This document shows positions 449 through 24,901 of a stretch of DNA of 52,247 nt, piece by piece. The position numbers and the translations under genes were made by a program. Where the stretch lies: the NCBI RefSeq assembly GCF_000735345.1, contig NZ_JMPJ01000022.1, positions 1 through 52,247 on the forward strand, written 5' to 3'. Every line of letters begins with the position of its first letter. The stretch's first letter is position 1. This DNA comes from Ewingella americana ATCC 33852. Lineage in GTDB: Bacteria > Pseudomonadota > Gammaproteobacteria > Enterobacterales > Enterobacteriaceae. The notes beneath the pieces were generated by a model. It ran no database searches. It saw only the letters and a list, made by a program, of their open reading frames with translations, and was not told where the DNA came from.

Positions 449-467
449 TTTTTCTTCTCTGGTCAAA

Positions 468-6421: not shown

Positions 6422-7074
6422 TGATGACCTTTACCGATTGGGACATCGTGCGCAACCTGCTGTTGGCGGCGCGCTGGACCATTTTGCTGTCGCTGACGGC
6501 GTTTATCGGCGGCACCTTAGTGACCTTGCCACTGCTGTTGATTCGCCTGACCAAGCGCAGCTGGCCGACCCGCACGGTGCGTTTGTACTCAGAGCTGTTT
6601 CAGGGGACGCCGCTGCTGATGCAGCTGTTCTTGGCCTTCTTCGGACTGGGGCTGTTTGGCATAGATGTCAGCCCGTGGACCGCCGCCGCGCTGGCGCTGA
6701 CGCTCTATACCAGCGCCTACTTGGTGGACATCTGGAGTGGCAGTATTGAAGCCTTGCCAAAGGGCCAGTGGGAAGCATGCCGCTGTCTGGGGCTGAGTTT
6801 CAGCCAGACCCTGTGGCGCGTGATTGCTCCGCAGGCGCTGCGGATTGCGATTGCGCCGACGGTGGGGTTCTCGGTGCAGGTGATTAAAGGTACGGCGCTG
6901 GCGTCAATCATCGGGTTTGTCGAGCTGACCAAGGCCGGAACTATGTTGACCAACGTGACCTATCAGCCGTTCAAAGTGTTTGGATTAGTGGCGCTAGGCT
7001 ACTTCCTGATGTGTTATCCGCTGTCGATGTACAGTCACTATCTTGAAAAATCGCTGCGTGGAGAGAACAAATAA
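6421..7074 (+). CDS. ABC transporter permease (polar amino acid type), second subunit
   Basis: A 217-residue paralogue of the preceding permease, with the same hallmarks: SELFQGTPLLMQLFLAFFGL near the start and the EAA loop GQWEACRCLGLSFSQTLWRV. It starts in a TGATG overlap with the first permease and ends in a TAATG overlap with the ATPase gene, so three genes are tightly coupled. It is the other half of the inner-membrane channel for the ureide or amino acid importer. Confidence 0.88.
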   Translation: MMTFTDWDIVRNLLLAARWTILLSLTAFIGGTLVTLPLLLIRLTKRSWPTRTVRLYSELFQGTPLLMQLFLAFFGLGLFGIDVSPWTAAALALTLYTSAYLVDIWSGSIEALPKGQWEACRCLGLSFSQTLWRVIAPQALRIAIAPTVGFSVQVIKGTALASIIGFVELTKAGTMLTNVTYQPFKVFGLVALGYFLMCYPLSMYSHYLEKSLRGENK

Positions 7075-7823: not shown

Positions 7824-7866
7824 TGAAAACAACTCAACTCGACTCAACGACTTTAAAGGACTAACC

Positions 7867-9105
7867 ATGTTGGATATTCAGAAATTTGGCCAAATCAATC
7901 CGCCAACTCGCCTGCTGATGGGGCCGGGGCCGATCAACGCCGATCCGCGCGTGCTGCGCGCGATGAGCAGCCAGTTAATCGGCCAGTACGATCCGGTGAT
8001 GACGGGCTATATGAATGAAGTGATGGCCCTGTACCGCGCGCTGTATAAAACCGAGAATCAGTGGACTTTCCTGATCGACGGCACCTCGCGCGCGGGCATT
8101 GAAGCCATTCTGCTGTCGGGCATTCGCCCCGGCGATAAAGTGCTGGTGCCGGTGTTTGGCCGTTTCGGCCACCTGCTGTGTGAAATTGCCCGCCGCTGCC
8201 GCGCCGAAGTCCACACCATTGAAGCACCGTGGGGCGAAGTGTTCGACCCGCAGCAAATTGAAGATGCTATCAAGTCAGTCAAACCGCGCTGGTTGCTGAC
8301 CGTGCAGGGCGACACCTCAACTACCATGTTGCAGCCGCTGGAGCAGCTCGGTGAGATCTGCCGCCGCCACGGGGTGCTGTTCTACTCGGACGCCACCGCC
8401 TCTTTCGGCGGCAACCCGCTGGAAACCGATGCATGGGGCTTAGACGCCGTGTCCGCCGGGTTGCAGAAGTGTCTCGGCGGCCCGTCAGGCAGCTCGCCGG
8501 TGACCCTCAGCCCGCGCTTTGAAGAGCAGATCCGCCGCCGTAAATGTGTCGAGGAAGGTATCCGTACCGCCGACCACGCCGACGGCGACGAAGAGATGAT
8601 CTACTCCAACTATTTCGATCTCGGCATGATCATGGATTACTGGGGTCCAGAGCGCCTCAACCACCACACCGAAGCGACCAGCATGCTGTTCGCCGCCCGC
8701 GAATGCGCCCGCGTCATTCTTGAAGAAGGTCTGGATAACAGCATTGCGCGCCACAAGCTGCACGGCGACGCGCTGCTGGCCGGGATTCAGGGCATGGGGC
8801 TGGAAGTGTTCGGTGACCTGAACAACCGCATGAATAACGTGCTGGGCGTGGTTATCCCGCAGGGCATTCCGGGTGAGCAGGTGCGTCAGATGATGCTCAA
8901 CGATTTCTCGATTGAAATCGGCACCTCGTTTGGCCCGCTGGCGGGCAAGATTTGGCGCATCGGCACCATGGGCTATAACGCCCGTAAAGACTGCGTGATG
9001 CAGACGCTGGTGGCGCTGGAAGCCGTGCTCAATCGCCTCGGTTTTGCGTCGAAATACGGCGCGGGTTCACAGGCCGCGTGGGACAGCTACGCGGGAGGCC
9101 AGTAA
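7867..9105 (+). CDS. hpxJ: HpxJ, ureidoglycine aminotransferase
   Basis: A 412-residue class V, fold-type I PLP aminotransferase. Lys201 in SAGLQKCLGGPSG is the expected Schiff-base lysine and Asp175 in FYSDATASF the pyridine-nitrogen partner. The start, with LLMGPGPINADPRVL, is typical of the alanine-glyoxylate and ureidoglycine-glyoxylate aminotransferase group. Klebsiella HpxJ transfers the amino group of ureidoglycine to a 2-oxo acid, giving oxalurate. The neighbouring hpxK gene supports this over a plain alanine-glyoxylate aminotransferase. AAAGGA precedes the ATG, and the stop overlaps the hpxK start by one base. Confidence 0.86.
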   Translation: MLDIQKFGQINPPTRLLMGPGPINADPRVLRAMSSQLIGQYDPVMTGYMNEVMALYRALYKTENQWTFLIDGTSRAGIEAILLSGIRPGDKVLVPVFGRFGHLLCEIARRCRAEVHTIEAPWGEVFDPQQIEDAIKSVKPRWLLTVQGDTSTTMLQPLEQLGEICRRHGVLFYSDATASFGGNPLETDAWGLDAVSAGLQKCLGGPSGSSPVTLSPRFEEQIRRRKCVEEGIRTADHADGDEEMIYSNYFDLGMIMDYWGPERLNHHTEATSMLFAARECARVILEEGLDNSIARHKLHGDALLAGIQGMGLEVFGDLNNRMNNVLGVVIPQGIPGEQVRQMMLNDFSIEIGTSFGPLAGKIWRIGTMGYNARKDCVMQTLVALEAVLNRLGFASKYGAGSQAAWDSYAGGQ

Positions 9106-10346
9106 TGGTTGCAGCCTCAACGCTGTTGGCCGCGCAGCGCGTGATGTCGCGCTGCGATGCGCTGGCGGAAATCACTGAAACGCCGGGTCAGCTGACCCGC
9201 GTTTATCTGTCGCCGGAGCATCTGCGGGCCAACCAATTGGTGGCCGAATGGATGCAGGCGGTGGGCATGAGCACCTGGACCGACAGCGTCGGCAATATTT
9301 GTGGTCGCTATGAAGGGCTAAACCCAGGCGCACCCGCGCTGCTGCTGGGTTCTCACCTCGACAGCGTGCGCAACGCCGGTCGCTACGACGGCCCGCTGGG
9401 GGTGCTCACCGCGATTGAAACCGTGGCTTATCTGCATCAAAACGCCATTCGCCTGCCGATGGCGGTGGAAGTGGTGGGCTTTGCCGATGAAGAGGGCACG
9501 AGGTTTGGCATTACGCTGCTCGGCAGCCGTGGGCTGACCGGCACGTGGCCGGAAGGCTGGCTGGAGCGCACCGACGCACAGGGCGTGTCCGTTGCCAGCG
9601 CGATGCGCGAGATTGGGCTAGACCCGCAGAATATCTTGGATGCGCGCCGTGCGCCGCAGGATTTTTGCGCCTACCTCGAGCTGCATATTGAGCAAGGCCC
9701 GTGCTTGCAATCGGCGGATTTGCCTCTCGGCGTGGTGACGGCTATCAACGGCGCGCGCCGCCTGAACTGCCGTTTTATCGGCTATGCCGGTCATGCGGGA
9801 ACCGTGCCGATGGGCCAGCGTCAGGACGCCCTGACCGCCGCTGCAGAATGGACCTTAGCCATTGAGGCTATCACCTCGGCGAAGGGCGGAGATCTGGTGG
9901 CGACCGTCGGCCATATCGAAGCCTTGCCGGGCGCGGTCAACGTCATTCCGGGGCAGGTGAATCTGTCGCTGGATGTGCGCGGCCCGCAGGATGCTCCTCT
10001 CAACGCTTTGCTGGCGGAATTGCTGGCGAAAGCCCAAGAGATCGCCGCACGGCGCGGGCTGAGCTTCGACGCCGAGCAGTTTTACAGCATCGATGCCACC
10101 GCCTGTGACGCTGAATTACAGCAGCGTTTCGGCCACAGCGTGGCAAATCTGCAAGGCCAGTCGCTGTTCCTGCCGAGCGGCGCGGGGCACGACGCCATTG
10201 CTATCGCCGAGTGCTGGCCGGTAGCCATGCTGTTCGTGCGCTGCAAAGACGGCGTTAGCCATCATCCCGATGAATCTGTCACGGTCGAGGATGTCGCGGT
10301 TGCCACGCAGGCCTATATTGATACCTTGCTGAGCTTCGCCGAGTAA
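9105..10346 (+). CDS. hpxK: HpxK, allantoate amidohydrolase (M20 family)
   Basis: A 413-residue dinuclear metal hydrolase of the M20 allantoate/N-carbamoyl amino acid amidohydrolase family. Metal-binding motifs appear in order: GSHLDSV, GRYDGPLGVL, GFADEEGTRFG and LHIEQGP. It hydrolyses allantoate to ureidoglycine, carbon dioxide and ammonia, which feeds HpxJ. The ATG at 9105 overlaps the hpxJ stop (TAATG) and has GGGAGG six bases upstream. The in-frame codon at 9078 lies inside hpxJ and has no such site. A strong hairpin follows the gene. Confidence 0.88.
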   Translation: MVAASTLLAAQRVMSRCDALAEITETPGQLTRVYLSPEHLRANQLVAEWMQAVGMSTWTDSVGNICGRYEGLNPGAPALLLGSHLDSVRNAGRYDGPLGVLTAIETVAYLHQNAIRLPMAVEVVGFADEEGTRFGITLLGSRGLTGTWPEGWLERTDAQGVSVASAMREIGLDPQNILDARRAPQDFCAYLELHIEQGPCLQSADLPLGVVTAINGARRLNCRFIGYAGHAGTVPMGQRQDALTAAAEWTLAIEAITSAKGGDLVATVGHIEALPGAVNVIPGQVNLSLDVRGPQDAPLNALLAELLAKAQEIAARRGLSFDAEQFYSIDATACDAELQQRFGHSVANLQGQSLFLPSGAGHDAIAIAECWPVAMLFVRCKDGVSHHPDESVTVEDVAVATQAYIDTLLSFAE

Positions 10347-12426: not shown

Positions 12427-13200
12427 TTACTCGTGGCGCAGGAAGCTATCAGCGTCGCGCCATGCCGGGAAGGCTTCGCGATAGTCTTGCAGCGCCTCCA
12501 GCGACAGTTCAGCACTCAGCACAATGGCAGCGCCCGGCTCGGCGCGGGTCAAGTCTTCCCCCTGCGGGTTGATGATCACGCTGTCGCCGCTGTAGTGATG
12601 GCCGTAATCGTCATCCCCCACGCGGTTGCAACCGGCGACATAAGCCTGATTTTCAATAGCGCGGGCGGTGAGCAGGGCTGACCAGTGGCGGCTGCGCGGT
12701 GCAGGCCAGTTAGCCACATACAGCGCCAAATCATAATCTTGCTGGTTGCGCGACCAGACCGGGAATCTCAGGTCGTAGCACACCTGCGGCAAGATCCGCC
12801 AGCCACGCCATTCGACGATTTCGCGCTTTTTCCCCGCCACATAGTAGTTGTGCTCACCGGCCATGCGGAACAGGTGGCGCTTGTCGTAGAAGTGAACTCT
12901 GCCCTGCGGCTCAACCAGCAGAAAACGGTTCACCGCGCCTTTATCGGTATTCAGCGCCACGCTGCCGCCAATCATGGCATTCAGGGTTTTCGCCCACTTT
13001 TGCAGCCACTCCACTACGCGAATCTCGGGCAGTGCGCGGTCGGGGGCCTGCATGGCGAAGCCGGTGGTGAACATCTCCGGCAGCACAATCAGGTCACGGT
13101 CGGTCAGGGGCGCCAGCAGCTGGTCGAAGTGAGCGAGGTTGGCTTCGCCATCCAGCCAGACCAGCGGTTGTTGCAGTAATGAGAGTTTTAAAGTTGACAC
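12427..13200 (-). CDS. yafV: YafV, omega-amidase (nitrilase superfamily)
   Basis: A 257-residue C-N hydrolase with the Glu-Lys-Cys triad: Glu42 in LPEMFTTGF, Lys107 in FYDKRHLF and Cys141 in PQVCYDLRFP. YafV-type enzymes hydrolyse alpha-ketoglutaramate and alpha-ketosuccinamate, clearing the product of glutamine-dependent transamination. The preceding gene is the YbdL transaminase, and the starts overlap by 13 bases, a functional pairing. The GTG at 13200 gives the normal family N-terminus (STLKLSLLQQP); the in-frame codon at 13248 would add 16 atypical residues. Confidence 0.88.
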   Translation of the reverse strand: MSTLKLSLLQQPLVWLDGEANLAHFDQLLAPLTDRDLIVLPEMFTTGFAMQAPDRALPEIRVVEWLQKWAKTLNAMIGGSVALNTDKGAVNRFLLVEPQGRVHFYDKRHLFRMAGEHNYYVAGKKREIVEWRGWRILPQVCYDLRFPVWSRNQQDYDLALYVANWPAPRSRHWSALLTARAIENQAYVAGCNRVGDDDYGHHYSGDSVIINPQGEDLTRAEPGAAIVLSAELSLEALQDYREAFPAWRDADSFLRHE

Positions 13201-14348
13201 AGTCGCTCCGCGGCAGCGTCCAGCGTGGCTTCTTGTTTGGCGAAACACAGCCGGATCAGTTTGTGTGGGAAAGGCGCGGCGCAGAATACGGACATCGGGA
13301 TCGCCGCGACCCCCACATGTTCGGTCAGCCAGTGGCAGAATGCAACGTCATCTAAATCAGAGACATCGCTGTAATCGACCAGCAGGAAATAGGTGCCATG
13401 GCTCGGCAATACTTTCAGGCGGCTGCTCGCCAGACCTTTCGCTAAACGGTCGCGCTTGGCCTGATAGAAGGCGGGCAACTCCTGCCAGTGTTGTGGCTCT
13501 TGGCGCAGCATGTCGGCCAAGGCCAGCTGCACCGGCGTAGTGATGGCGAAGGTCAGATATTGGTGAACTTTGCGCAGTTCGGCAGTGATGATCGCGGGCG
13601 CGATGCAGTAGCCGACGCGCCAGCCAGTCATGTGGAAGGTTTTGCCGAAGGAGGAGACGGCAATCGCGCGCTGGCGCAGCTCAGGGTGGCGCAGCACGCT
13701 GGCATGGCCTTCGGGCGCGAAGCAGATGTGCTCGTAGACTTCATCGCTGAGCACGAAGATCTCGCGCTCGGCAATGTGCTGCCAAAGCTGCTCGATATCC
13801 TGATGGCTCAGGGTGGTGGCCGAAGGGTTGTGCGGCGTATTGATGATAACCAGCTTGGTACGCTCGCTAATCTGGTCGGCAAAGGCCGCCCAGTCGACGC
13901 TAAATTCCGGCGGCTGGAGCTGAATACGCTTCATCACGCCGCCCGCCAACTCTACCGCTGGCGCGTAGCTGTCATAGCTTGGGTCGAAGGCAATCACTTC
14001 GTCGCCTTCGCGGATCAGGGCGGTAATGGCGATATACAGAGCTTCTGTGGCCCCGGCGGTGATGGTGATGTCGCTGGCGGCATCCGGCGCATAGCCGTAA
14101 ATACGCTGGGTTTTCTCGGCAATGGCTTCGCGCAGCGCGGCGGTGCCGGTCATTGGCGCGTACTGGTTAGCCCCCTGACTGACGTGATGCGCAAGGCGCT
14201 GTTTGAGGTAGTCCGGGCCGTCGAAATCAGGGAAACCCTGCGACAGGTTGATGGCGTTGTGTTGCTGCGCGAGGGCACTCATCTGGGTAAAAATGGTTGT
14301 GCCCAAGGCAGGAAGTTTACTTTGTGGGATCAGCGCTGCTTTACTCAT
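13188..14348 (-). CDS. ybdL: YbdL, methionine (glutamine) aminotransferase
   Basis: A 386-residue class I/II PLP aminotransferase. The PLP lysine is in SSFGKTFHMTGWRVGY, and NTPHNPSATTL and SDEVYEHICF are also typical. YbdL prefers methionine, histidine and phenylalanine and belongs to the kynurenine/glutamine transaminase K group. The overlapping yafV gene supplies the omega-amidase expected to pull the reaction when glutamine is the donor, as in methionine salvage. In E. coli these genes are apart, but the pairing is seen in other Enterobacterales. It starts with ATG at 14348. Confidence 0.88.
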   Translation of the reverse strand: MSKAALIPQSKLPALGTTIFTQMSALAQQHNAINLSQGFPDFDGPDYLKQRLAHHVSQGANQYAPMTGTAALREAIAEKTQRIYGYAPDAASDITITAGATEALYIAITALIREGDEVIAFDPSYDSYAPAVELAGGVMKRIQLQPPEFSVDWAAFADQISERTKLVIINTPHNPSATTLSHQDIEQLWQHIAEREIFVLSDEVYEHICFAPEGHASVLRHPELRQRAIAVSSFGKTFHMTGWRVGYCIAPAIITAELRKVHQYLTFAITTPVQLALADMLRQEPQHWQELPAFYQAKRDRLAKGLASSRLKVLPSHGTYFLLVDYSDVSDLDDVAFCHWLTEHVGVAAIPMSVFCAAPFPHKLIRLCFAKQEATLDAAAERLCQL

Positions 14349-14473
14349 GGCGTGCCTGCATTAGGGTCTTAGGTTTCCCCGATGATAACACGCTGTTTAC
14401 ATATGGCAATCGAGACGCTTAGATGGCTAAATGCTAATTTCATCTAGCCCAGAGCCAAACTGTCTATATCCCG

Positions 14474-15280
14474 TCACCAGAGGTTTAGATGGAACAGCAG
14501 CAGCGTCGCCATGGCAATGGACGGGCCAAAGGGAAAGTAGGCGGGCTGGTCGAGGGGAGCAGGGCGACGGCGGCGAATACCTGACAGAATATGCGCCACG
14601 ATGCCAAACAGCGCCGAGGCCAAAATCAGCTGCGGCAGGGCTTGCAAGCCACACCACGCAGAGCCGGCGGCGAACAGTTTTACGTCGCCATAGCCCAGAC
14701 CTTCGACCTTGCGCAGTGTCTGATACAGCTCGCGCAGCCCGCTCAGCAAGGCCCAACTGACTATCACGCCCAGTACTGCGTCAGACAATCGCAGAGGAAG
14801 ATAGCCCAGCGCCGACGCGCCAAGGCCGCTCCACAGCAGTAAAAACACCAACGGATCCGGCAGCAGCAGGTGGTGGAGGTCAATCACCGACAGGCAGAGC
14901 AGGATGGCGAACAACAGGGCAAACAGGCCGAGTTGCACTTCGCTGTACTCTGGGACATAGGCCAGCGCTATCAGCAGAAAAGCCGCGCCGGTCAGGGCTT
15001 CAATCAGCGGATATTGCGCGGAGATTGGCGTCTGGCAGTGACGGCAGCGGCCGCGCAGCAAGAGCCAACTCAGCACCGGAACGTTGTCGCGCTTGAGCAC
15101 CTTTTGCTTGCAGCTTGGGCAGTGCGAGGGCGGCCAGCTTAGGCTTAAGGCGGCCGCAGCAGCCTCTTCACGGCAGAGCATCAAAGGCAGCCGGTAAATC
15201 ACCACATTTAAAAAGCTGCCGATGATCAGGCCAATCATGCACATCAGCGGCGGGTAAAACAGACTAATGAATTCAGTCAC
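14474..15280 (-). CDS. Type IV prepilin peptidase (A24 family; TcpJ/CofP position)
   Basis: A 268-residue polytopic membrane protease. The two catalytic aspartates are visible in VIDLHHLLLPD and GLGYGDVKLF. The cytoplasmic zinc-type tetrad CPSC...CRHC (about residues 54-82) and the start IGSFLNVVIYRLP are typical. It should cleave the Gly|Met and Gly|Phe leaders of the pilins at 23255-23950 and 21612-23255 and N-methylate the new N-terminus. The start is GTG at 15280 with GGAA upstream. It is the last gene of the leftward pilus cluster, 21 bases after the TcpE-like gene. In E. coli-type genomes such a peptidase could also serve other systems. Confidence 0.87.
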   Translation of the reverse strand: MTEFISLFYPPLMCMIGLIIGSFLNVVIYRLPLMLCREEAAAAALSLSWPPSHCPSCKQKVLKRDNVPVLSWLLLRGRCRHCQTPISAQYPLIEALTGAAFLLIALAYVPEYSEVQLGLFALLFAILLCLSVIDLHHLLLPDPLVFLLLWSGLGASALGYLPLRLSDAVLGVIVSWALLSGLRELYQTLRKVEGLGYGDVKLFAAGSAWCGLQALPQLILASALFGIVAHILSGIRRRRPAPLDQPAYFPFGPSIAMATLLLFHLNLW

Positions 15281-15301
15281 GAGGGGTTTCCAGCAAGGCG
15301 A

Positions 15302-16330
15302 TTAGAAGGAGGTCATCTGCGAGATGGTGTCCGACAGGGCGAACAGCGCGATAAAGACCCAAATCACGCAGCCGCCGAGCACCAGCGTGGAGAGAGACTT
15401 CAGCAGCCCCGACAGCTTCTGGATATATTCCTGAATCTTCACCCGCGAGCGGCTGGAGACAGAGTTCAGCACCTGATTAAACGAGGGAAGCCCGGCGTAG
15501 AGATTAATGTTCAGCAGCTCTTCATGCCCAAACAGCCCGCTATTGAGTGCCTCGCCGTAGTTTTGGCCGTGGGACATCTTAGACAGCATGCTGTCGATGT
15601 GATGCTTGAGCCAGCGATTGGAGTTTAACTTGATGATTTCCAAAGCGTCGTTAATGGGAATGCCGTTTTTGAGCATCAGCGCCATATTGTTGAGAAATAT
15701 CGACGCGCCAATCTGTTTATAGGTGGAGAAGGGCAGGATTTTATCCAGAACGCGATCGCGGAAGTAGCCGGTCAGGTTCACCATGGTAAAGCGGATCAGG
15801 AAAATGGCGGCGGTGCCTACCAGCACTATTTTTAGCCATAAACCCTCAATCAGCGCGTTACCGAAGTGGTACAAAGCCTGCGTCACGCTCGGCCAAGTGG
15901 CGATGGGCACCACCTCTTCGAAAGCCGGGAACACCTTGACGGCGTAACCGGCAATCACAATCAGCGCTAGCACCAGCATGATGATCGGGAAGATCACCGC
16001 TGAGATTAACTTTTGAGTTAATTCACTGTTGTAGCGAATGACGTTAACCAGTGTTAGAAAGCCGTCGGCCAGACTGCCGCTGCGCTCTGCGGCATGAATA
16101 ACGCTGAGTTCATCGCGTGGGATAAGCTCTTCGAACACCGCGGATATTGAGGTGCTTTCACGCATTTTATCGGTAAGGGTTTTGAGCTTATTGCTGAAGC
16201 CTTTGCCGAGCAATTTCCCGCCTTGTTGCTGCAGTTTGAGCAGTGCGTCATACAGCGGCAGTTCGGCGTGGATCATGTCCGAGCAGAACTGATACAGGTA
16301 CAGTCGCTGCGATTTAGCTAACTTTCTCAA
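15302..16330 (-). CDS. Type IVb pilus inner-membrane platform protein (TcpE-like, GspF family)
   Basis: A 342-residue GspF/PilC-type platform protein with three predicted membrane spans (near ISAVIFPIIMLVLALIVIAGYAV, then IVLVGTAAIFLIRF, then a C-terminal LVLGGCVIWVFIALFAL). The conserved AERSGSLADGF motif follows the first cytoplasmic domain. The length matches V. cholerae TcpE (about 340). The start is taken as TTG at 16330 because GGAGG lies six bases before it inside the ATPase gene; the open frame extends to another TTG at 16378 without such a site. It overlaps the ATPase gene by 17 bases. It anchors the assembly ATPase to the pilin polymerisation site. Confidence 0.83.
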   Translation of the reverse strand: MRKLAKSQRLYLYQFCSDMIHAELPLYDALLKLQQQGGKLLGKGFSNKLKTLTDKMRESTSISAVFEELIPRDELSVIHAAERSGSLADGFLTLVNVIRYNSELTQKLISAVIFPIIMLVLALIVIAGYAVKVFPAFEEVVPIATWPSVTQALYHFGNALIEGLWLKIVLVGTAAIFLIRFTMVNLTGYFRDRVLDKILPFSTYKQIGASIFLNNMALMLKNGIPINDALEIIKLNSNRWLKHHIDSMLSKMSHGQNYGEALNSGLFGHEELLNINLYAGLPSFNQVLNSVSSRSRVKIQEYIQKLSGLLKSLSTLVLGGCVIWVFIALFALSDTISQMTSF

Positions 16331-17843
16331 GCAGAACCTCCATGTCTTCTTCAAGCAGGGTGCCAAATTCCATGGCAAACCAATTGGCGCAGACTCGCCC
16401 TTGCAGCACGGCGGCCATCACCTTCTCTTTGATTTCAAAACCTTCAGTGAGTGAAGGGCTGAGGGCGCGTTTATTGCGCCATAGGCCGTAGACTTGCAGC
16501 CACTGCTCTTTGGCAATGAATTCCAGCTCGGCATGGGTCGGCAGCATGTACTCCACCACCAGTTGCCGACTGGCAACGCCGGTGTTCTTGCAGGCCGCGC
16601 AGCCTTCGGCATTGCGGGCAAACAGCGCGTAGGGCTTGTCACAGTGGTTGGCGCTGGTGGCCTTTTTGCAGGCGTTGCACAAGATAGGGATCAGCTTTTG
16701 GCACTGCAGCCCGGCCAGAAAGCCGGGGGTTGAGAGCTTGTCGCTGGTGATGCCCATCGCGCACAGGCGTTGCAGCAGCGAGACAATATTCCCTGCGTGA
16801 ACCGTGGTGAAGCAGTAATGGCCGCTCTCCACGGCTCCGGCCAGCGCGTTGGCCGAGATGTTGTCGCGGATCTCCCCGACCATCAGCACGTCGGGGTCGC
16901 GGCGCAGCGCGGATTTAATCGCGGCGTGAAAGCCGCCGTCTTCGCCATTGAGCACCGAACTCTGCTTGGCGCCGTAGATTTGATATTCCACCGGGTCTTC
17001 GACGGTGAGAAAACAGCCCTTGTCGCCGTAGCGATTGACCTGTAGCCACTCCATCAGGTTCTTGAGGGTGGTGGATTTCCCCGAGCCCGTGGTGCCAGAG
17101 ATAAAGTAGGCGCCATAAGGGTTGCAGAGGATTTTCTTCAGGTCACTTAACTCGGCGTCGCTGATCCCCAGCTTGTCCAGACTGGCGACCACGGCTTTCG
17201 ACACGCCGGAGGGGATGATACGCAGCACGGCGTGGTAGCAGCCGTCCTCTTCACCAAAAATGGGGAAGTGGGCATAGCGAAAGCGATAACTCTTTTTGTT
17301 CAGCATGTAGAGAATGTTGGCGCTCTGCGGGATGTTGCGATTCCACGTGGTGTCCTTGGTGCTGGCCTCGACGTTATAGAGCACAAACACCAGTTCATCG
17401 CACCGTTGCGACTTCATCTGCATGTAAAGGGTCAGCACGCCGTTGATGCGCAGCTCAATAATCGCTACCACTTCATTGCGGGTGATATGCAGGTCACTGG
17501 CACCGGAATCGACGGCGTAGAGCAAGATCTGCTCCAGCGTTTTTTGGGTCGAGCTGGTACTCAGCACGGCTAACTGGCGAGTCTGCGAGGAGAGCTCCTC
17601 GAGAATTTCGTAATAAGTGCTGTCGCTGACCTGCACGATGCCGCTGATGGCTGGCGACTGGAATTTGCCCAACCGCCACAGGTCAAACTGGATGGTCGGC
17701 AAGCATTCCAGCAGCGGGCGGGGGCAGATCAGGTAGTGCTTATCCTCAAACGAGGCGGTGAGCAGGTGCTCATCGTATTCTTTGAACAGCCAGCCGCTGC
17801 CGGTGATGTCCGGCGACTCAAGCCGGAGGAATTCGAAGCTCAC
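16314..17843 (-). CDS. Type IVb pilus assembly ATPase (TcpT/PilB/GspE family)
   Basis: A 509-residue secretion ATPase. In order: the CM-like ASDLHITRNE (115-124), Walker A GTTGSGKST (250-258), the Asp box LTVEDPVEYQIYG, Walker B DVLMVGEIRD (318-327), the His box TTVHAGN, and a C-terminal tetracysteine module (Cys389, Cys392, Cys415, Cys418). The tetracysteine module marks extension-type rather than PilT-type retraction ATPases. The length matches TcpT (503). It starts with GTG at 17843 in a GTGA overlap with the preceding gene. No second ATPase is present, as in TCP and CFA/III, where a minor pilin is thought to trigger retraction. Confidence 0.88.
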   Translation of the reverse strand: MSFEFLRLESPDITGSGWLFKEYDEHLLTASFEDKHYLICPRPLLECLPTIQFDLWRLGKFQSPAISGIVQVSDSTYYEILEELSSQTRQLAVLSTSSTQKTLEQILLYAVDSGASDLHITRNEVVAIIELRINGVLTLYMQMKSQRCDELVFVLYNVEASTKDTTWNRNIPQSANILYMLNKKSYRFRYAHFPIFGEEDGCYHAVLRIIPSGVSKAVVASLDKLGISDAELSDLKKILCNPYGAYFISGTTGSGKSTTLKNLMEWLQVNRYGDKGCFLTVEDPVEYQIYGAKQSSVLNGEDGGFHAAIKSALRRDPDVLMVGEIRDNISANALAGAVESGHYCFTTVHAGNIVSLLQRLCAMGITSDKLSTPGFLAGLQCQKLIPILCNACKKATSANHCDKPYALFARNAEGCAACKNTGVASRQLVVEYMLPTHAELEFIAKEQWLQVYGLWRNKRALSPSLTEGFEIKEKVMAAVLQGRVCANWFAMEFGTLLEEDMEVLLEKVS

Positions 17844-18316
17844 GGCGTGACTTCCTTAATGCTCATTGCCCCACGTTGAGCACCGGCTTGTAGCCTGTAC
17901 GCTTTGCCATTGGCCTGAAATACTTCATTCAGGCGCACCATTTTTACCTGCTTGCCCACGGCGATGGCCACGCGCGACACGCCAGCGATGTCAGAAATCA
18001 GCAGGACTTTTGGCCCCTCAGAAAATTGCTGCGGGGCACTGGCGGCGCTGTCAGGCACATCGCCTTGTAAAGGCTCATTTTTTAGCTTACTCAGCTTGCT
18101 ACGAAGCTCTTCCAGCGCCAGTTCGTTGACCAGCTTGCGATGCTCAGTCTCAAAATAGAAGTTGTCTTCCATCATGCTGGCAATATGGTCTTGCTCAGGA
18201 GATACCGCCGGGATCTCAAGCTGATTACTGGCCAGTGGCGGGAGATTATCCTGACCCAGCACGGCATAGGGTGCTGACATGAGCAGCAGCGGGGCGATCA
18301 ATGTCCATTTTTGCAT
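17840..18316 (-). CDS. Type IVb pilus periplasmic protein (TcpS/PilP position)
   Basis: A 158-residue exported protein. A signal peptide (MQKWTLIAPLLLMSAPYAVLG) is followed by a helical stretch with alternating charge (VNELALEELRSKLSKLK) and a small beta-rich domain from about residue 100 (VLLISDIAGVSRVAIAVG). The C-terminal domain resembles the PilP/TcpS type that contacts the secretin and aligns it with the inner-membrane complex. Size and place between TcpD-like and TcpT-like genes match tcpS (152 residues). It overlaps its upstream neighbour by 19 bases and the ATPase gene by 4. The assignment rests on position and architecture. Confidence 0.7.
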   Translation of the reverse strand: MQKWTLIAPLLLMSAPYAVLGQDNLPPLASNQLEIPAVSPEQDHIASMMEDNFYFETEHRKLVNELALEELRSKLSKLKNEPLQGDVPDSAASAPQQFSEGPKVLLISDIAGVSRVAIAVGKQVKMVRLNEVFQANGKAYRLQAGAQRGAMSIKEVTP

Positions 18317-19125
18317 AACAATCCTCCTGATATTTTGGTCCCTGTCTTGCTCACCGCCACCTCTTTAATAAAGAAGGCGTCCTGATAGGCGAGAGTTTTG
18401 AAATACTGCATCACGTAAATGGCTTCCCTGGGCAGTTCAACTTCCCAAGTGGCGCTTAAGAATTGATAGCGCTGACCCATGCGCTGGCCGACTTCATCCT
18501 CGAGAGATGAAATTGAGGACTCTGGCGCGCTGAGAAGGATTATTTTTTCTTTACTGGCGACGGCGTTGTTATGCCCGTAAATATAATTCAACAGATTGAC
18601 ACATTGGGGTAATTGAATAGCCGCAGCGGATTGGTATTTCTTCAATAAAGGATGATTTTCCAGTTTTGAAGGCAGACCTTGATAATTAACCTCACCAGCA
18701 GAGAAGCTCGCCGTAAATAGCCGATGCCAAAACTGCTTTTGCTGTAAATTAAAAATCCCATTGTCTTGCAATAGATAATGGAAATTACAGCTGGTGGTAT
18801 CGCAGTTGACATTCTCTTCCCGATAACCCGCCAGTTGTAATGGAATGCGGCTGCGCGCCATCTCCGTCAGCAATTTGTTTAAGCTGGTAATATGCCCGCC
18901 GCTAAAGCTATCCAGATAGTACTGTTTTACTTGCTGGATCTTCTGCGCTACCTGCTGCTGGGCGATCTCCTCTTGCGCCAGTCGCTCTTTTTTCGGCACA
19001 TACAGCAGGAAGTATCCTCCGCTAATCGACAATAAAATCAGTATCACCACAACGGTGCTGATAATAATGGGCAATTTACGCGCCGATTGGGTGATGTCTT
19101 TCCAGATGTAATCTTTATTCAGCAT
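18298..19125 (-). CDS. Type IVb pilus bitopic inner-membrane protein (TcpD position)
   Basis: A 275-residue protein with a short cytoplasmic N-terminus, one membrane helix (about 19-41, PIIISTVVVILILLSISGG) and a large periplasmic domain with Cys pairs (NCDTTSC near 108-114, and a cysteine in QLPQCVNLL). It fits the TcpD/PilO-type alignment component in length (278 for TcpD) and position. It starts with ATG at 19125, 6 bases after the preceding gene. Function by analogy: linking the cytoplasmic ATPase/platform to the secretin. Confidence 0.68.
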   Translation of the reverse strand: MLNKDYIWKDITQSARKLPIIISTVVVILILLSISGGYFLLYVPKKERLAQEEIAQQQVAQKIQQVKQYYLDSFSGGHITSLNKLLTEMARSRIPLQLAGYREENVNCDTTSCNFHYLLQDNGIFNLQQKQFWHRLFTASFSAGEVNYQGLPSKLENHPLLKKYQSAAAIQLPQCVNLLNYIYGHNNAVASKEKIILLSAPESSISSLEDEVGQRMGQRYQFLSATWEVELPREAIYVMQYFKTLAYQDAFFIKEVAVSKTGTKISGGLLCKNGH

Positions 19126-19131
19126 GGTTAA

Positions 19132-19692
19132 TTATCCGGAGAAAAAGAAGTCTATCAGCACCAGCGTTAACCCCACCACGCCGATGGCCGTAAGCAGCAA
19201 AGCGCTATAGAGGAACAGTCTCTGTTTGCGCAGCCTTTTCTTGCGTTTTTCACACAATGAAATGACGGTTTCGATATGCTTGTCTTCTAATAGAATAAGC
19301 TCCAAATCGCCGTAGTCCGACTCCGGCAACACGCGTATCACTTCATCAAAAAAGGCTTTGCCAATCAGCCTGTCGGTTCCAGCTATAATCTGACCGCTAT
19401 AAATCATTAACAAATAATATTCATCTTCAGAGACAACGGCATAATAAATGCCATCGCCAAATTGAGTATTAATATAGGTGGCGAACGGGTCATGATATAA
19501 AACCGGCTTGTCCGTGTAGCCATAGTGGCTTTTATTCTTATCATCGGTATAGACCACCTGATGGTGACTCTTTTTCGTCGCCTCAATCCATTGGCGATAA
19601 TCCTTAGCATTACTGCCGGAATAGGCGTTTTCCCAGATTAACCCAGTGACAATATGGTTTTCGGTTAACTGTTGGATGAAGTTATTTTTCAT
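19132..19692 (-). CDS. Type IVb pilus accessory protein with C-terminal anchor (TcpR position)
   Basis: A 186-residue protein whose first 150 residues are predicted soluble and cytoplasmic. It ends in one hydrophobic helix (about 161-183, LYSALLLTAIGVVGLTLVLI) preceded by a strongly basic KKRKKRLRKQR segment, so it is a tail-anchored inner-membrane protein. Its place after the secretin matches tcpR, which is shorter (151). No catalytic motif is seen. It overlaps the secretin gene by ATGA and is read in the same operon. It may form part of the cytoplasmic ring around the ATPase; this is inferred. Confidence 0.62.
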   Translation of the reverse strand: MKNNFIQQLTENHIVTGLIWENAYSGSNAKDYRQWIEATKKSHHQVVYTDDKNKSHYGYTDKPVLYHDPFATYINTQFGDGIYYAVVSEDEYYLLMIYSGQIIAGTDRLIGKAFFDEVIRVLPESDYGDLELILLEDKHIETVISLCEKRKKRLRKQRLFLYSALLLTAIGVVGLTLVLIDFFFSG

Positions 19693-21158
19693 TTTAATGA
19701 GTAGGGCGCCTGATGATAGTCGATACCCACCACCATGACGACAGTGGCATCAGATTGGTTGCTCTCGCCGCCCGCGCCTATCAGCATCGCTCGCTGTCCG
19801 TCTGACATTTCCGTCGCTTGGTACTTGCTGACCATTAATAATGTGCCCGCCGTGACGGTAGAAACATTAAAGGTTTCCGTGGTGGTCACGACAGGCAGTT
19901 GAATAAGCTCGAAGGTGTCGAGACCATTGAGGAATCTTTTGGTAAAGCCGCTGGAGACTTCTATTCTGCCGTCTGACAGAACTCTAGGCGTAATAATAAA
20001 ACTGGTGCCAGTAATAATTCTATCAGTGGTGACCTCTATGGTTTCGCGATTAGTGGTTTCATTAATGGTTCTGGTGCGCCCGGAGACATAGTTCTGTCTC
20101 TTGGTCATATTCAAAGGAATAGGCATATTGTTACGAGTAACAAAGGTGCCGCTCTGCAATACTCGCGAACCCGTAAGTTCATAAAAAGCGTCAAGTTGAG
20201 CATTAATGTTTAGCGTGCGCCCAGCTTCTGGCGAATAGAACTTACGCCCGGCCTTAAAGGTTCCTTCTGCAGATTTCATCATTGCGGTGGTGAGGTTTAT
20301 CCCCGTGCCGCCGTTAATCAGATCGATATTCATCGCGGCACCGGCTTTTTTAATTTTTCGCTTATCCAGCACAAAAACCTTGTAGCTGACAATAAACTGG
20401 CGGCTGTTGTCGGTCTGGTATTTCTTGAGGATTTGGCTAAGGGTCTTATGTTCCGAAGGTCTGGCGGTAAAAGTCAAAATAGAGGCATCTTTAAAAAGGC
20501 TGTAAATACCGCTAGAAACGTACTTCTCCGCCATGTCTTTAACATCCTCCCAGAAGGTGGATTCAAACTTGGTTTCTGATTTGGCAATCAGGCCGCCTTC
20601 CGCCGTGGCTTCATTGCTCGACAGATCGAGTGAGGCTTCGAATTTGTTATTTTGCCCATAGAAATCCAGCTTAATGGCATAGGTTTCATACAACGACGTG
20701 GTCAACACGTTGTTGTGGTCCAGTGTCGAGGAAACATCATAAAGCACGGATATGTAACGCATAAACTCTTCAAACGTGCCGTTGAAGTTAATAGTGTGTG
20801 CCTGAAGTGGGGCCGCTTGGCTGCCCGTCTTCTCGCTATTAGGCAAAGAATCATTGATGCGATAGCTGATCCCCGTTTGGTCGGCGACGGATTCAAGCAG
20901 GGTCGGCAGATCTATAGGTTCATAGGATTCAATATTGACGTTTTGACTCAGCAGTTGCTGTGTCTTGGCATTGTACTCAACGCGCTTGCCAAGGAAGGCT
21001 GCGTCATATTTTTGGTAGGGACGGGTTTTGATGTCATCCGCTTCCACCACCTGAGGCATCTGGTTAGATTCACTATTAAGATCGTACTTTTGGTCAAAAT
21101 AGTGAGCACAGCCCGGCAGCATGGCGGATAAGCAAAATACCAATAATTTATTCTTCAT
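19689..21158 (-). CDS. Type IVb pilus secretin lipoprotein (TcpC/BfpB/PilN type)
   Basis: A 489-residue outer-membrane secretin, the same length as TcpC. A lipoprotein signal ends in LPGC (Cys17 or so). The N-terminal half carries a secretin N-type domain (YEPIDLPTLLESVADQTGISY) and the C-terminal half the beta-barrel core with RVLSDGRIEVSSGFTKR and IQLPVVTTTETFNVSTVTAG. It should form the gated pore for the pilus. The ATG at 21158 is preferred over the adjoining GTG because AGGGA lies seven bases before it. Base composition is clearly lower in G+C than in the flanking chromosomal genes. Confidence 0.85.
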   Translation of the reverse strand: MKNKLLVFCLSAMLPGCAHYFDQKYDLNSESNQMPQVVEADDIKTRPYQKYDAAFLGKRVEYNAKTQQLLSQNVNIESYEPIDLPTLLESVADQTGISYRINDSLPNSEKTGSQAAPLQAHTINFNGTFEEFMRYISVLYDVSSTLDHNNVLTTSLYETYAIKLDFYGQNNKFEASLDLSSNEATAEGGLIAKSETKFESTFWEDVKDMAEKYVSSGIYSLFKDASILTFTARPSEHKTLSQILKKYQTDNSRQFIVSYKVFVLDKRKIKKAGAAMNIDLINGGTGINLTTAMMKSAEGTFKAGRKFYSPEAGRTLNINAQLDAFYELTGSRVLQSGTFVTRNNMPIPLNMTKRQNYVSGRTRTINETTNRETIEVTTDRIITGTSFIITPRVLSDGRIEVSSGFTKRFLNGLDTFELIQLPVVTTTETFNVSTVTAGTLLMVSKYQATEMSDGQRAMLIGAGGESNQSDATVVMVVGIDYHQAPYSLK

Positions 21159-21176
21159 CACTGTTTCCCTGTGAAA

Positions 21177-21587
21177 CTATTGTCCATCAATGATTAACAC
21201 TTTATTTTTGCTGTAAAACTTAATAACTAACCCATAGTTTTCCGAGACAAAAATACGCCCCAAATTATTGAGAATTTCATCATTGCTCTTCCCCGATATC
21301 AGCGTATCAGTAAATATCATGTAATCGCTTTCGCTATTCCATAGCAGCTTATAGCCGACTTTATCCGCCCATTTTTTTATTTCCTGACTTAATAGGCTAT
21401 TTTCATGCAGAATCAATATTTGTTTCTGGGTTGTAACTTCGGCGTGAAGTAGAGGTTTTTTTAATAGCAATCCTGTCCGGTGGGTATTATCAATTTTAGC
21501 CGAGTTAGCACCAGTGTGAAGTGACGCATAAGAGGCAGTACTAATAAATAATAAGAGTAACGATAATGGTTTAAATATCCCTTTCAT
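21177..21587 (-). CDS. Periplasmic TcpQ-like pilus protein
   Basis: A 136-residue exported protein. A signal peptide (MKGIFKPLSLLLLFISTASYA) leads to a small domain ending DEILNNLGRIFVSENYGLVIKFYS, the TcpQ/toxin-coregulated pilus biosynthesis Q pattern. TcpQ stabilises the secretin TcpC and helps it reach the outer membrane. The gene precedes the secretin gene, as in tcp and cof. The ATG at 21587 is chosen because AGGA precedes it and it starts the signal peptide; the frame is open to 21611. Confidence 0.78.
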   Translation of the reverse strand: MKGIFKPLSLLLLFISTASYASLHTGANSAKIDNTHRTGLLLKKPLLHAEVTTQKQILILHENSLLSQEIKKWADKVGYKLLWNSESDYMIFTDTLISGKSNDEILNNLGRIFVSENYGLVIKFYSKNKVLIIDGQ

Positions 21588-21611
21588 AGTAATGTCCTGC
21601 TGTAGTGCCAA

Positions 21612-23255
21612 TTAAAAGTTAGGGGTGAGGCCTTTATAAAATAGACGGGAATAATCAACTTCAACGGTGCTGCACCATCGGGTGATCACTACGGATACAG
21701 AGCTTGGATTACGGTAGCTAAATGTTTTTTTGTGTGCACGGTTATAAGCCGATATGGTGGAAGTAACGACCCATTTATTGTCGTAACGGTTAACTTGGAT
21801 CTCTACTTTGCTAAAATCCGATGACAGTTCGCTTGGAGCGACTGATCGAGTCAGTGCTGGATTAGAATAATCTTTTAGATAAGTTCCTACATTCTCCTTC
21901 ATGTTATAAGAGATATCGGAGGACAAGGACGAAATGGCTGCCGCAATTCTTGGGTAAAGTTGGCGATTGTTCGGGCCCATTGGGCAACGCTGAACGGGTA
22001 ATGTAATTCTCCCCACTTCATCATCCAGACGACCCATGTACTCTTGGTAATATCTTGCACCATATAAGGGAGGTGCATCGATATTAATGGTATTGCCAAA
22101 AGCGGCGTAGCTTATCAGCGGAATGGTGGTCAACTCCGGGGGAGAGTTTGTGTATCTTCCTGGGCTTTCTAGAATCACGTTGGTGAGCAATGTGCCCACG
22201 GTCTTTGAGCCGTCAGCATTATTGGCTTCCAGAACCAGCACATTGTTTTCAGCATGGTTATAGCCCTGTCCGGCTTCGCTTGAGAGACAAAGGGTGGTAT
22301 TGGATTTTGAGGCATCCCAGCAGAGCTTTCCCGCCCCGACGCTGCCTGCGAGTTGAGTCTTCTGAGCATTTTTAGTGTTCACCGAAATACGGATGCCAAA
22401 TTGCTGTTTAAGCTTACTGCCGGCGGTCGCGATATAGCGGCTCATTTCACCGAAATTCACTGGCACTCTTTGACTTTCGCTGCCCGTCATCAATAGCTGC
22501 CACGCCGAGTTAGCCTTGCTGCCCGGCGGGCGCACCACAATGTGCGCGTGGGCGTAACTCAGCCCCATATCTTCAAACGCTTTGTTAAATGCCTGAAGGT
22601 AGCTGTCAAAGCGCAACTTGTCCTCGGTTCGCGGCGTTAGAGGGCTGTAACTGATGATGAAATCGACCCGGTCGACATCCTGACGCTTGGGGTCGCCAAC
22701 TAAATCAACGCGAACAATATTTAAAACCTCTTTGCTGAGCTGACTCGGGGAGGCGCACGGCAGAAATTCTTTCTCGAATTGGTAGACCTTATTTAATGTC
22801 TCCGGCCCGCAGCGATTACTGACAAAATAGCTTCTCTGGCTCATAGGCCCGTACCATTCAAAGAATCTTGCCGAGTGAATGACTTCAGTCATTTTATAAT
22901 TAGTGACTCTTCTACTATAAACAGCTTTTCTGGCCCCGTTTAATTTCAGATCATAAAGTGGATTGGTTTTAAAATTATCCCCTTTACCGTTTTCGATAAC
23001 AGAAACCTGACCTTGCTGAATAAATTTAACCAAGCCGTATATCTCACGAGTAATGAGTTTTGCCGTCTGTCGTTGTTTAATTTCTTCAATGTTCTTTTGC
23101 TTGATATTGACTGTAAAAGCCATAGTCAGGCCGATGATCACCAGCACCACTAACATTTCAAGCAAAGTGAAACCGCGAGAGAATTTATGCACGATTAGGC
23201 CAATATGATGGTCAGTAGAGAAATCCCTTCTCCCACAGGAGAAGGGGCGGGGCAT
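21612..23255 (-). CDS. Large type IVb minor pilin (TcpB/CofB-like)
   Basis: A protein of up to 547 residues with a type III signal: leader ending HKFSRG, then mature FTLLEMLVVLVIIGLTMAF with Glu at +5. A very large C-terminal region includes CQ- and C-containing loops (RCPMGPNNRQ, RWCSTVE). TcpB (about 430) and CofB (about 518) are the closest architecture. These start pilus assembly at the tip and support retraction without a PilT. The start is unclear: ATG 23255 overlaps the pilin stop (TAATG) but gives a 28-residue leader containing a hairpin-forming sequence, while GTG 23192 gives a 7-residue leader. The Gln/Asn/Ser-rich C-terminus may be a tip adhesin or bind a secreted partner; no such partner gene is seen. 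Confidence 0.78.
   Translation of the reverse strand: MPRPFSCGRRDFSTDHHIGLIVHKFSRGFTLLEMLVVLVIIGLTMAFTVNIKQKNIEEIKQRQTAKLITREIYGLVKFIQQGQVSVIENGKGDNFKTNPLYDLKLNGARKAVYSRRVTNYKMTEVIHSARFFEWYGPMSQRSYFVSNRCGPETLNKVYQFEKEFLPCASPSQLSKEVLNIVRVDLVGDPKRQDVDRVDFIISYSPLTPRTEDKLRFDSYLQAFNKAFEDMGLSYAHAHIVVRPPGSKANSAWQLLMTGSESQRVPVNFGEMSRYIATAGSKLKQQFGIRISVNTKNAQKTQLAGSVGAGKLCWDASKSNTTLCLSSEAGQGYNHAENNVLVLEANNADGSKTVGTLLTNVILESPGRYTNSPPELTTIPLISYAAFGNTINIDAPPLYGARYYQEYMGRLDDEVGRITLPVQRCPMGPNNRQLYPRIAAAISSLSSDISYNMKENVGTYLKDYSNPALTRSVAPSELSSDFSKVEIQVNRYDNKWVVTSTISAYNRAHKKTFSYRNPSSVSVVITRWCSTVEVDYSRLFYKGLTPNF
23225..23246 (-). terminator. Hairpin just after the major pilin gene (attenuator or stability stem)
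   Basis: A perfect 9-bp stem, CCCTTCTCC with GGAGAAGGG, has a 4-base loop and begins 9 bases past the pilin stop on the minus strand. Only ATTTCTC follows, so read-through is expected. A partial terminator or 3' stabilising stem here would give far more pilin than downstream machinery, as is usual for pilus operons. Confidence 0.55.
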
Positions 23256-23950
23256 TAACGGCTACCCAACACGATGGCGTTGTTTGGGGTATTGGTACAA
23301 ACCCCTAAGGTTGCCGCAGGAGTGATAGTGACGTTGCCACTGGCATGCAGGCTTCTCAATACCCCAGAAACCAGTGTGGCATCCAGCGAGCTTGGTGCCA
23401 CGGCATCGACACCGGCTGCGGCGGCTACGACACCAACGTAATCCCATTGATTACCAATTTGAGTAATAATGTTACGGCACTGAGCTTGATCTAACCCGTT
23501 GATAGTAAGATAAAAGCCTTTCAAGCCAGCTGTGGGGCCAGTGGTAATACGTACTCCGCCCATATGGAAGTAGTCACCAGAGATGCCGTTTTTGGCTTCA
23601 GATTCAGACAGTTTTCCCAGCTGTACCAGTGACGCGATCATGATTTTCGCGTTGGCGTTTACCAGGATGGAGGTAGGAGACATGTTGACGGTGGCGGTAG
23701 GTGAAGCCACCGGATAGCCGGTATTTCTGTAAGCTTCCTGTGCCGCCAGACGGATGCTATTGGTGTTGCTGACTAATTTAGTAATGGACTGGCTGCTGAA
23801 GGCGCGCTGTGCCAGCACGACCACGCCTGCGGCTATAGTCCCGACAATACCCAAAACGATAATGACTTCGAGTAATGACATTCCCCGCTGTTTTCTAAAT
23901 TTCTTATACGCGTTAGCTTTACTCTTAAGTATATTAATTTGTTCTTTCAC
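23255..23950 (-). CDS. Major type IVb pilin (TcpA/CofA-like)
   Basis: A 231-residue prepilin. The long basic leader (23 residues, ending FRKQRG) is cleaved before MSLLEVIIVLGIVGTIAAG, with Met at +1 and Glu at +5: a type IVb hallmark (type IVa pilins start with Phe). The mature length is 208, as for CofA of CFA/III. Two cysteines, in QAQCRNI and LGVCTNT, should form the disulfide that bounds the D-region. The pilin is exported by the machinery encoded downstream and polymerises into the pilus shaft. The start is GTG at 23950 with AAGGA seven bases before. Its closest relatives by pattern are CofA, longus LngA and Citrobacter CfcA. Confidence 0.87.
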   Translation of the reverse strand: MKEQINILKSKANAYKKFRKQRGMSLLEVIIVLGIVGTIAAGVVVLAQRAFSSQSITKLVSNTNSIRLAAQEAYRNTGYPVASPTATVNMSPTSILVNANAKIMIASLVQLGKLSESEAKNGISGDYFHMGGVRITTGPTAGLKGFYLTINGLDQAQCRNIITQIGNQWDYVGVVAAAAGVDAVAPSSLDATLVSGVLRSLHASGNVTITPAATLGVCTNTPNNAIVLGSR

Positions 23951-24430
23951 GACACATTCCTTATGTATGCTAATAGCGATTTTCTGGATATTTTATTTTT
24001 CATTAAACACATAATAAATAATCCCCGGTGAAGTGATTATTTAAGCGCAGATATCTAATGGCAGGCTGATTGTTATGTAAGCGAGCTATGAAATGCAATA
24101 GATTTTTGGAATTGCTCTGGGTGTTTTTTTATTGAATTGTTGTTTTTGAGTTGATTTTTATTATTCGCAATTGTTATTTGTTTGATTAATTAATTTTGGG
24201 TTTTGTTTTTGATTCTTAAAATAAAATATTGGCAAGGTGTTTTTATTATTATGAACCTCATCGATTAGCTATTTAGATTAGTTAGCGGAACGCATTTTTT
24301 TTCACAAAATGACCTGTGAACGTCAGTTCAGCGAAGCGCGTCGGTTTCTTGTATAATGTGCCGCTTCGAGGTGCGAAGGGGTGAACCCAGTGGCATTTCC
24401 TCGGTTTACTCCAAACAGGAATACAGAATT
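23951..24430. other. A+T-rich divergent region between the pilin gene and yehS
   Basis: These 480 bases hold no credible gene. About 24050-24300 is extremely A+T-rich, with T-tracts and TATT repeats. This is typical of H-NS-bound regulatory DNA upstream of acquired surface-structure operons. The pilus promoter should lie here on the minus strand; no clear -35/-10 pair was picked. The yehS promoter lies near 24330-24400 on the plus strand. Confidence 0.6.
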
Positions 24431-24901
24431 ATGATGCATAACGACGTCTTGCGCAGCGTGCGCCACATGCTTGATTTAAGCGAAGGCAGACTGATTGAGA
24501 TCCTCAAAACCACCGGCGTGCCCGTCAGCCCGGAAGTGATGTCCCGCTACCTGAAGAAAGAGGACGAAGAGGGTTACATGGAGGTTCCTGACGAAGTCAT
24601 GGCTAACTTCCTCAACGGTTTGATCACCTTCAAACGTGGTAAAGACGACCGTTTCCCAGCTCCAGAAGTAGAAAAACGCGTCACCAACAACATCATGTTG
24701 AAGAAACTGCGCGTGGCGTTTGAGCTGAAAACCGAAGACATGCTGAGCGTGCTGGCCGCCGCCGACTTCAAAATGTCCGAAGGCGAACTGAGCGCGTTCT
24801 TCCGCAAAGAAGGCCATAAGAACTACCGTCCTTGCGGCGATCAGGTGCTGCGTTACTTCCTGAAAGGTTTGACCGCGCGGGTCCGCCCGTCTAAAGCCTA
24901 A
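24431..24901 (+). CDS. yehS: YehS, DUF1456 family protein
   Basis: A 156-residue protein made of two tandem DUF1456 repeats (about 1-70 and 76-150). Each carries a pattern like ILRSVRxxLxLxE...LRKEDEEGY...FLNGLI; the second copy reads LKKLRVAFELKTEDML...KNYRPCGDQVLRYFLKGL. The length equals E. coli YehS. Function is unknown. The ATG at 24431 is chosen because it starts the first repeat and AGGA lies upstream; the open frame extends 75 bases further without homology. In E. coli yehS is elsewhere, so its place beside fadE marks a local rearrangement. Confidence 0.85.
   Translation: MMHNDVLRSVRHMLDLSEGRLIEILKTTGVPVSPEVMSRYLKKEDEEGYMEVPDEVMANFLNGLITFKRGKDDRFPAPEVEKRVTNNIMLKKLRVAFELKTEDMLSVLAAADFKMSEGELSAFFRKEGHKNYRPCGDQVLRYFLKGLTARVRPSKA

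Follow-up and report, generated by a model that had tools for sequence, protein, structure and literature searches.

A cluster of pilus genes in the chromosome of Ewingella americana ATCC 33852 raises two questions: what does a type IVb pilus of the TCP/CFA-III type do when the gene for its secreted cargo is missing, and how did it come to occupy its site? In Vibrio cholerae and enterotoxigenic Escherichia coli, the pilus and a secreted colonization factor come together, obscuring the role of the pilus alone. The cluster lies at 14474-23950 on the minus strand of the 52,247-nucleotide stretch of contig NZ_JMPJ01000022.1 analysed here (the window), and its ten genes run in the order A, B, Q, C, R, D, S, T, E, J. 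The likely answer is that they encode a working chromosomal adhesion or aggregation pilus of the TCP/CFA-III family, acquired horizontally, which took the place of a block of methionine-salvage (mtn) genes in two sister species and serves without a secreted cargo.

The initial annotation had read a TCP/CFA-III-type type IVb pilus locus in tcp gene order from the letters of the DNA. Protein families, matches to structures in the PDB and the gene order of related operons agree with it, and all ten minus-strand open reading frames are open and uninterrupted. From the region upstream of A leftward, the features are:

23951-24320, no strand: AT-rich region upstream of A (28.9% G+C), presumed promoter region, without a regulator gene
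23255-23950, minus strand: A, major pilin, TcpA/CofA type (Pfam TcpA 1.1e-9)
23225-23246, minus strand: terminator-like stem-loop of 9 bp between A and B, from the fold of the interval
21612-23192, minus strand: B, single large minor pilin, CofB/TcpB type (probable GTG start; the longest frame extends to 23255)
21177-21611, minus strand: Q, TcpQ/CofC-type secretin partner (Pfam TcpQ 9.4e-10)
19689-21161, minus strand: C, lipoprotein secretin, TcpC/CofD type, 490 residues, lipobox-like LPGC (identity to related secretins)
19132-19692, minus strand: R, TcpR/CofE-type inner-membrane protein (position; 25-77% identity to R of related operons, some matches partial)
18298-19125, minus strand: D, TcpD/CofF-type inner-membrane protein (position; 24-77% identity, some matches partial)
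17840-18316, minus strand: S, TcpS/CofG-type protein (position; 28-64% identity where matched, tblastn)
16314-17843, minus strand: T, assembly ATPase, TcpT/CofH type, 509 residues (Pfam T2SSE 1.2e-80; Walker A GTTGSGKS at 250, two CxxC)
15302-16378, minus strand: E, inner-membrane platform, TcpE/CofI type (Pfam T2SSF 4.5e-27)
15281-15301, no strand: gap of 21 bp at the tcpF/cofJ position (E-J spacing)
14474-15280, minus strand: J, prepilin peptidase, TcpJ/CofP type (Pfam A24_N 7.1e-34, Peptidase_A24 4.2e-19; two CxxC, Asp motif and GYGD)

Judged by its diagnostic proteins, this is a TCP/CFA-III-type operon, because the Pfam families fit and T and E match the NCBIfam equivalogs of type II secretion and type IVa pili only far below their cut-offs (T, 173 against 630 bits for GspE and 157 against 676 for PilB; E, 76 against 424 for GspF). 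The single cluster, in tcp gene order, fits the same class. A TcpQ-type protein stands beside a lipoprotein secretin, whose score against Pfam Secretin (E 0.0049) is itself under the cut-off and which is 48-85% identical to 17 related secretins. By tblastn, T is 58-91% identical to related T proteins. R, D and S matched no relevant Pfam family; their assignment comes from where they lie and from tblastn against other operons, in one of which (L041) S had no match. No gene for a retraction ATPase lies within the operon; the insert holds one T2SSE-family gene, and three further T2SSE-family matches lie elsewhere in the genome.

Prepilin A has 231 residues: a 23-residue leader and a mature protein of 208 (residues 24-231) that starts Met-Ser-Leu-Leu-Glu5 and has two cysteines, at mature positions 135 and 195. 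Its nearest match is the CofA chain 9iuf_A, also of 208 residues (mature residues 1-208; E 1.4e-49), followed by TcpA 8uhf (E 1.1e-24). Homology to TcpA/CofA, the mature Met1, Glu5 and the cysteine pair together mark A as a major pilin of the type IVb kind. B is one large minor pilin with both CofB domains (Pfam CofB_pilin_dom 6.5e-32 and CofB_C 2.5e-21; CofB structure 4qs4, 4.4e-60). It probably starts at GTG 23192 rather than ATG 23255, because the hairpin sits between A and B and the frame of the sister species (L025) opens at a matching GTG. From this start B has 526 residues (547 in the longest frame), with a 7-residue leader, Glu5 and six cysteines that are invariant across 15 aligned B proteins. 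The residues that homology requires are intact: both pilins have Glu5, T has its Walker A motif and a pair of CxxC motifs, and J likewise has two CxxC, along with both Asp motifs. The sizes first proposed for the mature pilin (208) and the ATPase (509) stand, and the secretin has 490 residues rather than 489. A platform of about 342 residues is plausible for E, whose longest frame has 358 (TTG start); the start would lie inside that frame, and 16 of the 23 operons compared give 340-348.

The operon had also been called complete, a description that has to be given up. A signal-bearing secreted protein of the TcpF/CofJ type (F) is absent between E and J, where only the 21-bp gap is found, and the open reading frames of the insert (14447-24320) include no regulator, integrase, phage or transglycosylase gene. 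Among 24 distinct operons with both E and J, 15 have a frame of 264-449 residues between the two genes and nine do not: the window, L025, L029, L034, L036, L040, L048, L053 and L054. This count leaves out L032, whose contig ends inside the operon, and the truncated L044, and named loci that share a contig with an unnamed one (L045, L046, L049-L052, L056, L057) were counted once. Since F is absent from nine of 24 operons, its presence is not treated as defining the pilus family. The F-less operons fall in four places on a midpoint-rooted C+T+E tree of 23 taxa, in which the placement of L036 is weakly supported (49); if F is ancestral, this would mean at least four losses. L035 was left out of the tree and of alignment A1 for its split C frame: at about 6799-8300 of this locus (genome G546), the secretin gene is apparently divided into two frames.

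Could the pilus still secrete a cargo encoded elsewhere in the genome and too divergent to detect? We regard this as unlikely, though it is the strongest of the alternatives. In its favour, B retains both CofB domains, and genome G208 offers a precedent for an unlinked cargo-like gene. Searches of the window genome with Pfam CofJ, with a Rahnella F protein and with a profile of four F proteins were all blank, the last being the only one with positive controls (it found all four source genomes and the unlinked G208 protein). By eye, the cargo frames of other operons open with what looks like a signal peptide and then an aromatic motif (YGF, YGL, YRF, GGAF, GSF, NFNY and similar), a pattern consistent with the type IVb secretion signals described in PMC9565799. 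The G208 protein (L084, 1492-2742) has 416 residues, a cargo-like N-terminus (...NPTGGAFKF), a match of E 2e-7 to the four-F profile and no Pfam family. It lies far from the G208 pilus operon, which has its own F, and is a possible orphan pilus substrate.

Our preferred explanation, a pilus that acts without cargo, would work as follows. J would cleave the prepilins. A trimer of B would prime assembly on platform E with ATPase T, and A would polymerise and, with R, D and S taking part, exit through the C/Q secretin. Once a further B subunit is taken in at the base, growth would stall and retraction would be triggered, as proposed for TcpB. According to PMC5207764, TcpB initiates and retracts its pilus without a retraction ATPase, and by homology B may do the same here. 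An H-type-lectin-like tip domain is described in PMC9565799, and Pfam and PDB sequence matches suggest this fold for the tip of B. Because the cargo gene is absent, the filament is unlikely to serve as a secretion piston; the functions that would most likely remain are cell-cell aggregation and adhesion to surfaces, carried out directly by the filament and the tip domain of B.

The hairpin after A would keep B rarer than A. In all 25 operons the A-B interval has a more stable fold than its mononucleotide shuffles have on average, with a z score of -2 or below in 17 of them; for L040 the interval was shortened by motif match. A stem 3' of A was seen by eye in 24 of the 25. Control of the A/B ratio by this hairpin is probable. 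Judged by title, none of the papers listed in a literature search dealt with a tcpA-tcpB stem-loop.

A second alternative is that the operon is a decaying acquisition without function, which we find improbable. Loss of F would fit decay, as would the D gene of the sister species, which is frame-disrupted. Against this, the ten window genes are open with the examined motifs intact, and dN/dS (the ratio of nonsynonymous to synonymous divergence) between the window and L025 is 0.07-0.27 for nine operon genes, the D of L025 being excluded.

The same comparison shows that the sister alleles differ more than their surroundings. Synonymous divergence (dS) is 0.18-0.45 in eight flank genes (mean 0.29), 0.54-0.60 in T, E and J (about 2-fold the flanks) and 0.88-1.37 in A, B, Q, C, R and S (mean 1.09, about 3.7-fold). 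Nucleotide divergence jumps at both edges of the insert and a further time close to the border of T and S. Five pairs of the other species served as a control: there the native genes of the mtn interval average 1.2-1.6 times the dS of the flank genes, and individual genes reach about 2.1 times gmhA. The ratios of these pairs are compressed by their greater divergence. The A-S half is well beyond this control, and T, E and J are only slightly beyond it. Exchange of alleles by recombination may best account for the A-S half, and faster divergence of that half is the less favoured explanation. Low G+C content of the A-S half was also considered as a mosaic signature; this was weakened by the low third-position G+C (GC3) of the major pilin in several other operons.

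How the operon came to its site can be read from the rest of the genus. The features of the site are:

13188-14348, minus strand: flanking methionine aminotransferase gene, ybdL/mtnE (NCBIfam NF006569, 1.8e-201)
14413-14428, no strand: probable MetJ operator, AGACGCTT AGATGGCT, matching 12 of 16 positions of two tandem consensus metboxes; conserved in L025, L065 and L066
14447-24320, no strand: replaced segment; flank homology to genus-mates ends at 14446 and restarts at 24321
24356-24901, plus strand: flanking yehS (Pfam DUF1456, 9.7e-53)

The pilus occupies the ybdL-yehS site in two of six genus genomes, the window and L025, and the edges of the insert are identical in both. The other four carry methionine-salvage genes there, two read whole and two in part. 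In L065 and L066 the whole interval holds mtnB, mtnC, mtnD, three lipoprotein genes, mtnA and mtnK. Gene families were checked on L065 (its lipoprotein genes are GNA1162-like, DUF4810 and CsgG-like), and L066 was assigned by likeness of frames. Contig ends cut the interval in L064 and L067; mtnA and mtnK lie beside yehS in both, mtnC of each is on another contig, and the three lipoprotein genes are present in L064, whereas L067 has a Xan_ur_permease gene at that place. Across the genus, mtnK, mtnC and mtnA are each found in four of six genomes and in neither pilus carrier. At the right edge, 12 nucleotides match the last mtnK codons of three of the four genus-mates, with one mismatch in L067. 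The ybdL/mtnE gene would be a leftover of the salvage cluster. The other flank families checked were an amidohydrolase (yafV, which we equate with mtnU) and FadE. No direct or inverted repeats of 9 or more nucleotides were found between 220-base stretches at the two junctions. The G+C content is 0.491 in the insert and 0.541 in the whole window, and falls to 0.289 upstream of A.

The comparison with close genomes at this site, which the initial annotation had proposed, thus gave shared edges with L025 and an mtn block in the non-carriers. It bore out a core chromosomal site and a locus that most relatives lack. Neither outcome that the initial annotation had said would overturn it, proteins of a type II secretion or type IVa pilus family or a locus shared by all relatives, was seen. 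The flanks match those of mtn-bearing genus-mates, and "in place of" the mtn block is a better description than "inserted". The contrast drawn with E. coli and its ivy gene falls away, as the genus-mates carry methionine salvage at the site and not ivy. That the operon is instead ancestral and vertically kept, with loss in other species and a later arrival of methionine salvage, is very improbable: the two carriers do share one site for it, but four of four non-carriers keep mtnA and mtnK beside yehS, the operons closest to it in the tree are those of Rahnella, without ybdL, yehS or fadE flanks, and the mtn cluster, which MetJ controls, is described in PMC3228920 as widespread in Enterobacteria with later repeated losses.

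By eye, the outer parts of the window look accessory. Amidase, gamma-glutamyltransferase, amino-acid ATP-binding cassette transporter, aminotransferase and amidohydrolase genes lie at 1-10346, and dehydrogenase, nucleoside, amidase and permease genes lie at 39348-52247, to the right of tRNA-Thr at 39242.

Several observations weigh against a horizontally acquired, cargo-free working pilus in place of the mtn block. The mtnK match at the right edge is only 12 nucleotides long. Absence of mtn genes means absence from drafts, of 92 contigs for the window genome and about 10 for the sister, and the genome-wide search covered mtnK, mtnC and mtnA. Cargo proteins are only 19-32% alike, so a divergent orphan cargo gene could escape detection, and the Pfam CofJ and Rahnella F searches were made without a positive control. 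The hairpin of the window itself has a modest z score of -1.4. Low G+C is not uniform across the operon, as GC3 of T, E and J is host-like (0.71-0.77). Finally, the TcpD-type gene of the sister species (L025, genome G394, about 5061-5871) is disrupted near residue 190; the operon may be decaying there, and the disruption could also be an assembly error.

The rarity outside intestinal pathogens that had been implied for this pilus does not hold. With the window genome counted each time, the CofB pilin domain occurs in 3 of 394 genomes from the order, 20 of 392 of the family (the sister included) and 2 of 6 of the genus, and in 8 of the 20 family carriers the locus is on a contig of over 4 Mb. 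A class-wide search with the secretin profile gave one genome in 369 at E 1e-20 or better, the window's own. A scan of named records gave 14 loci, from Rahnella, Enterobacillus, Citrobacter, Kluyvera, Enterobacter, Pseudocitrobacter, Lelliottia, Huaxiibacter, Salmonella diarizonae and Pseudescherichia. Among the 33 other operon loci searched, only L025 has ybdL, yehS or fadE beside the operon. Spread beyond E. coli and Vibrio is already known in print, because Oki et al. discuss homologous secreted proteins in several Enterobacteriaceae (PMC9565799). A literature search of titles and the starts of abstracts returned, among the matches listed, nothing on point beyond that paper; the locus may nonetheless have been published.

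Seven operons (L028, L031, L037-L039, L041 and L042) apparently lie just downstream of folP/glmM-type genes, a recurrent site; the neighbouring families were checked in L028 and L031, and the others were read from frame lengths. In Citrobacter braakii ATCC 51113, two contigs each bear an operon of the pilus family, and the two operons (L048 and L055) are different. Linkage to phages was tried and rejected: the secretin had no match in 50,697 phage records, and of 56 pattern stretches from a scan of viral contigs, none was confirmed by tblastn.

It is tempting to speculate, and we do so tentatively, that there is a cargo-free branch of TCP-type pili. F would have been lost at least four times in Enterobacteriaceae, if it is ancestral, and the tip of B would have become an adhesin. 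A single swap with the mtn cluster beside the MetJ operator would have been followed by exchange of divergent alleles between the sisters, as in surface-antigen loci. Natural operons with the whole machine and a full CofB-type tip and without a cargo gene would allow a test of the pilus alone. The locus also illustrates clearly how a surface organelle can take the place of metabolic genes, and this class of pilus is now seen in the chromosomes of several Enterobacteriaceae genera.

Among known systems, the tcp genes of V. cholerae run A, B, Q, C, R, D, S, T, E, J. Part of a table in PMC4971541 agrees with this order. The window operon shares it, together with the TcpA and TcpQ profiles and a single Glu5 minor pilin. 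It is unlike tcp in that the insert has no tcpF or toxT-type gene and that its pilin matches TcpA more weakly than CofA (1.1e-24 against 1.4e-49). The CFA/III (cof) and longus operons of Escherichia plasmids are like it in families, in the 208-residue mature pilin (CofA) and in the two-domain CofB; for longus, the counterparts were taken to be those of A, B, Q, C, T and J, with LngC paired to Q by position. Against these plasmid proteins, the secretin is 50.3% identical among the best 25 of 64 matches and the platform 55.8-56.6% among the best 25 matches listed (CofI type). B is only 28.9-31.5% identical among the best 40 of 64 matches, the 64 records being all from Escherichia. Unlike cof and longus, the window operon is chromosomal, without cofJ and with no regulator genes in its insert.

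The operons of Citrobacter amalonaticus (L029), C. braakii (L048), Enterobacter sp. ENT03 (L034) and genome G670 (L040) resemble that of the window in having an E-J gap without a gene. They differ in belonging to a separate clade and in the longest frames of B, which reach 716-760 residues as against 547; an M23 peptidase gene lies 3' of J in L029 and L034, the two checked, unlike in the window. The chromosomal operons of Rahnella (L026 and L047) form the sister clade to the window operon in the midpoint-rooted C+T+E tree, with a support of 100. They differ in having no ybdL, yehS or fadE flanks and in carrying an F gene with a GSF-type N-terminus. Identity to L026 is 53% for A, 69% for T and 64% for E, and only 29% for B.

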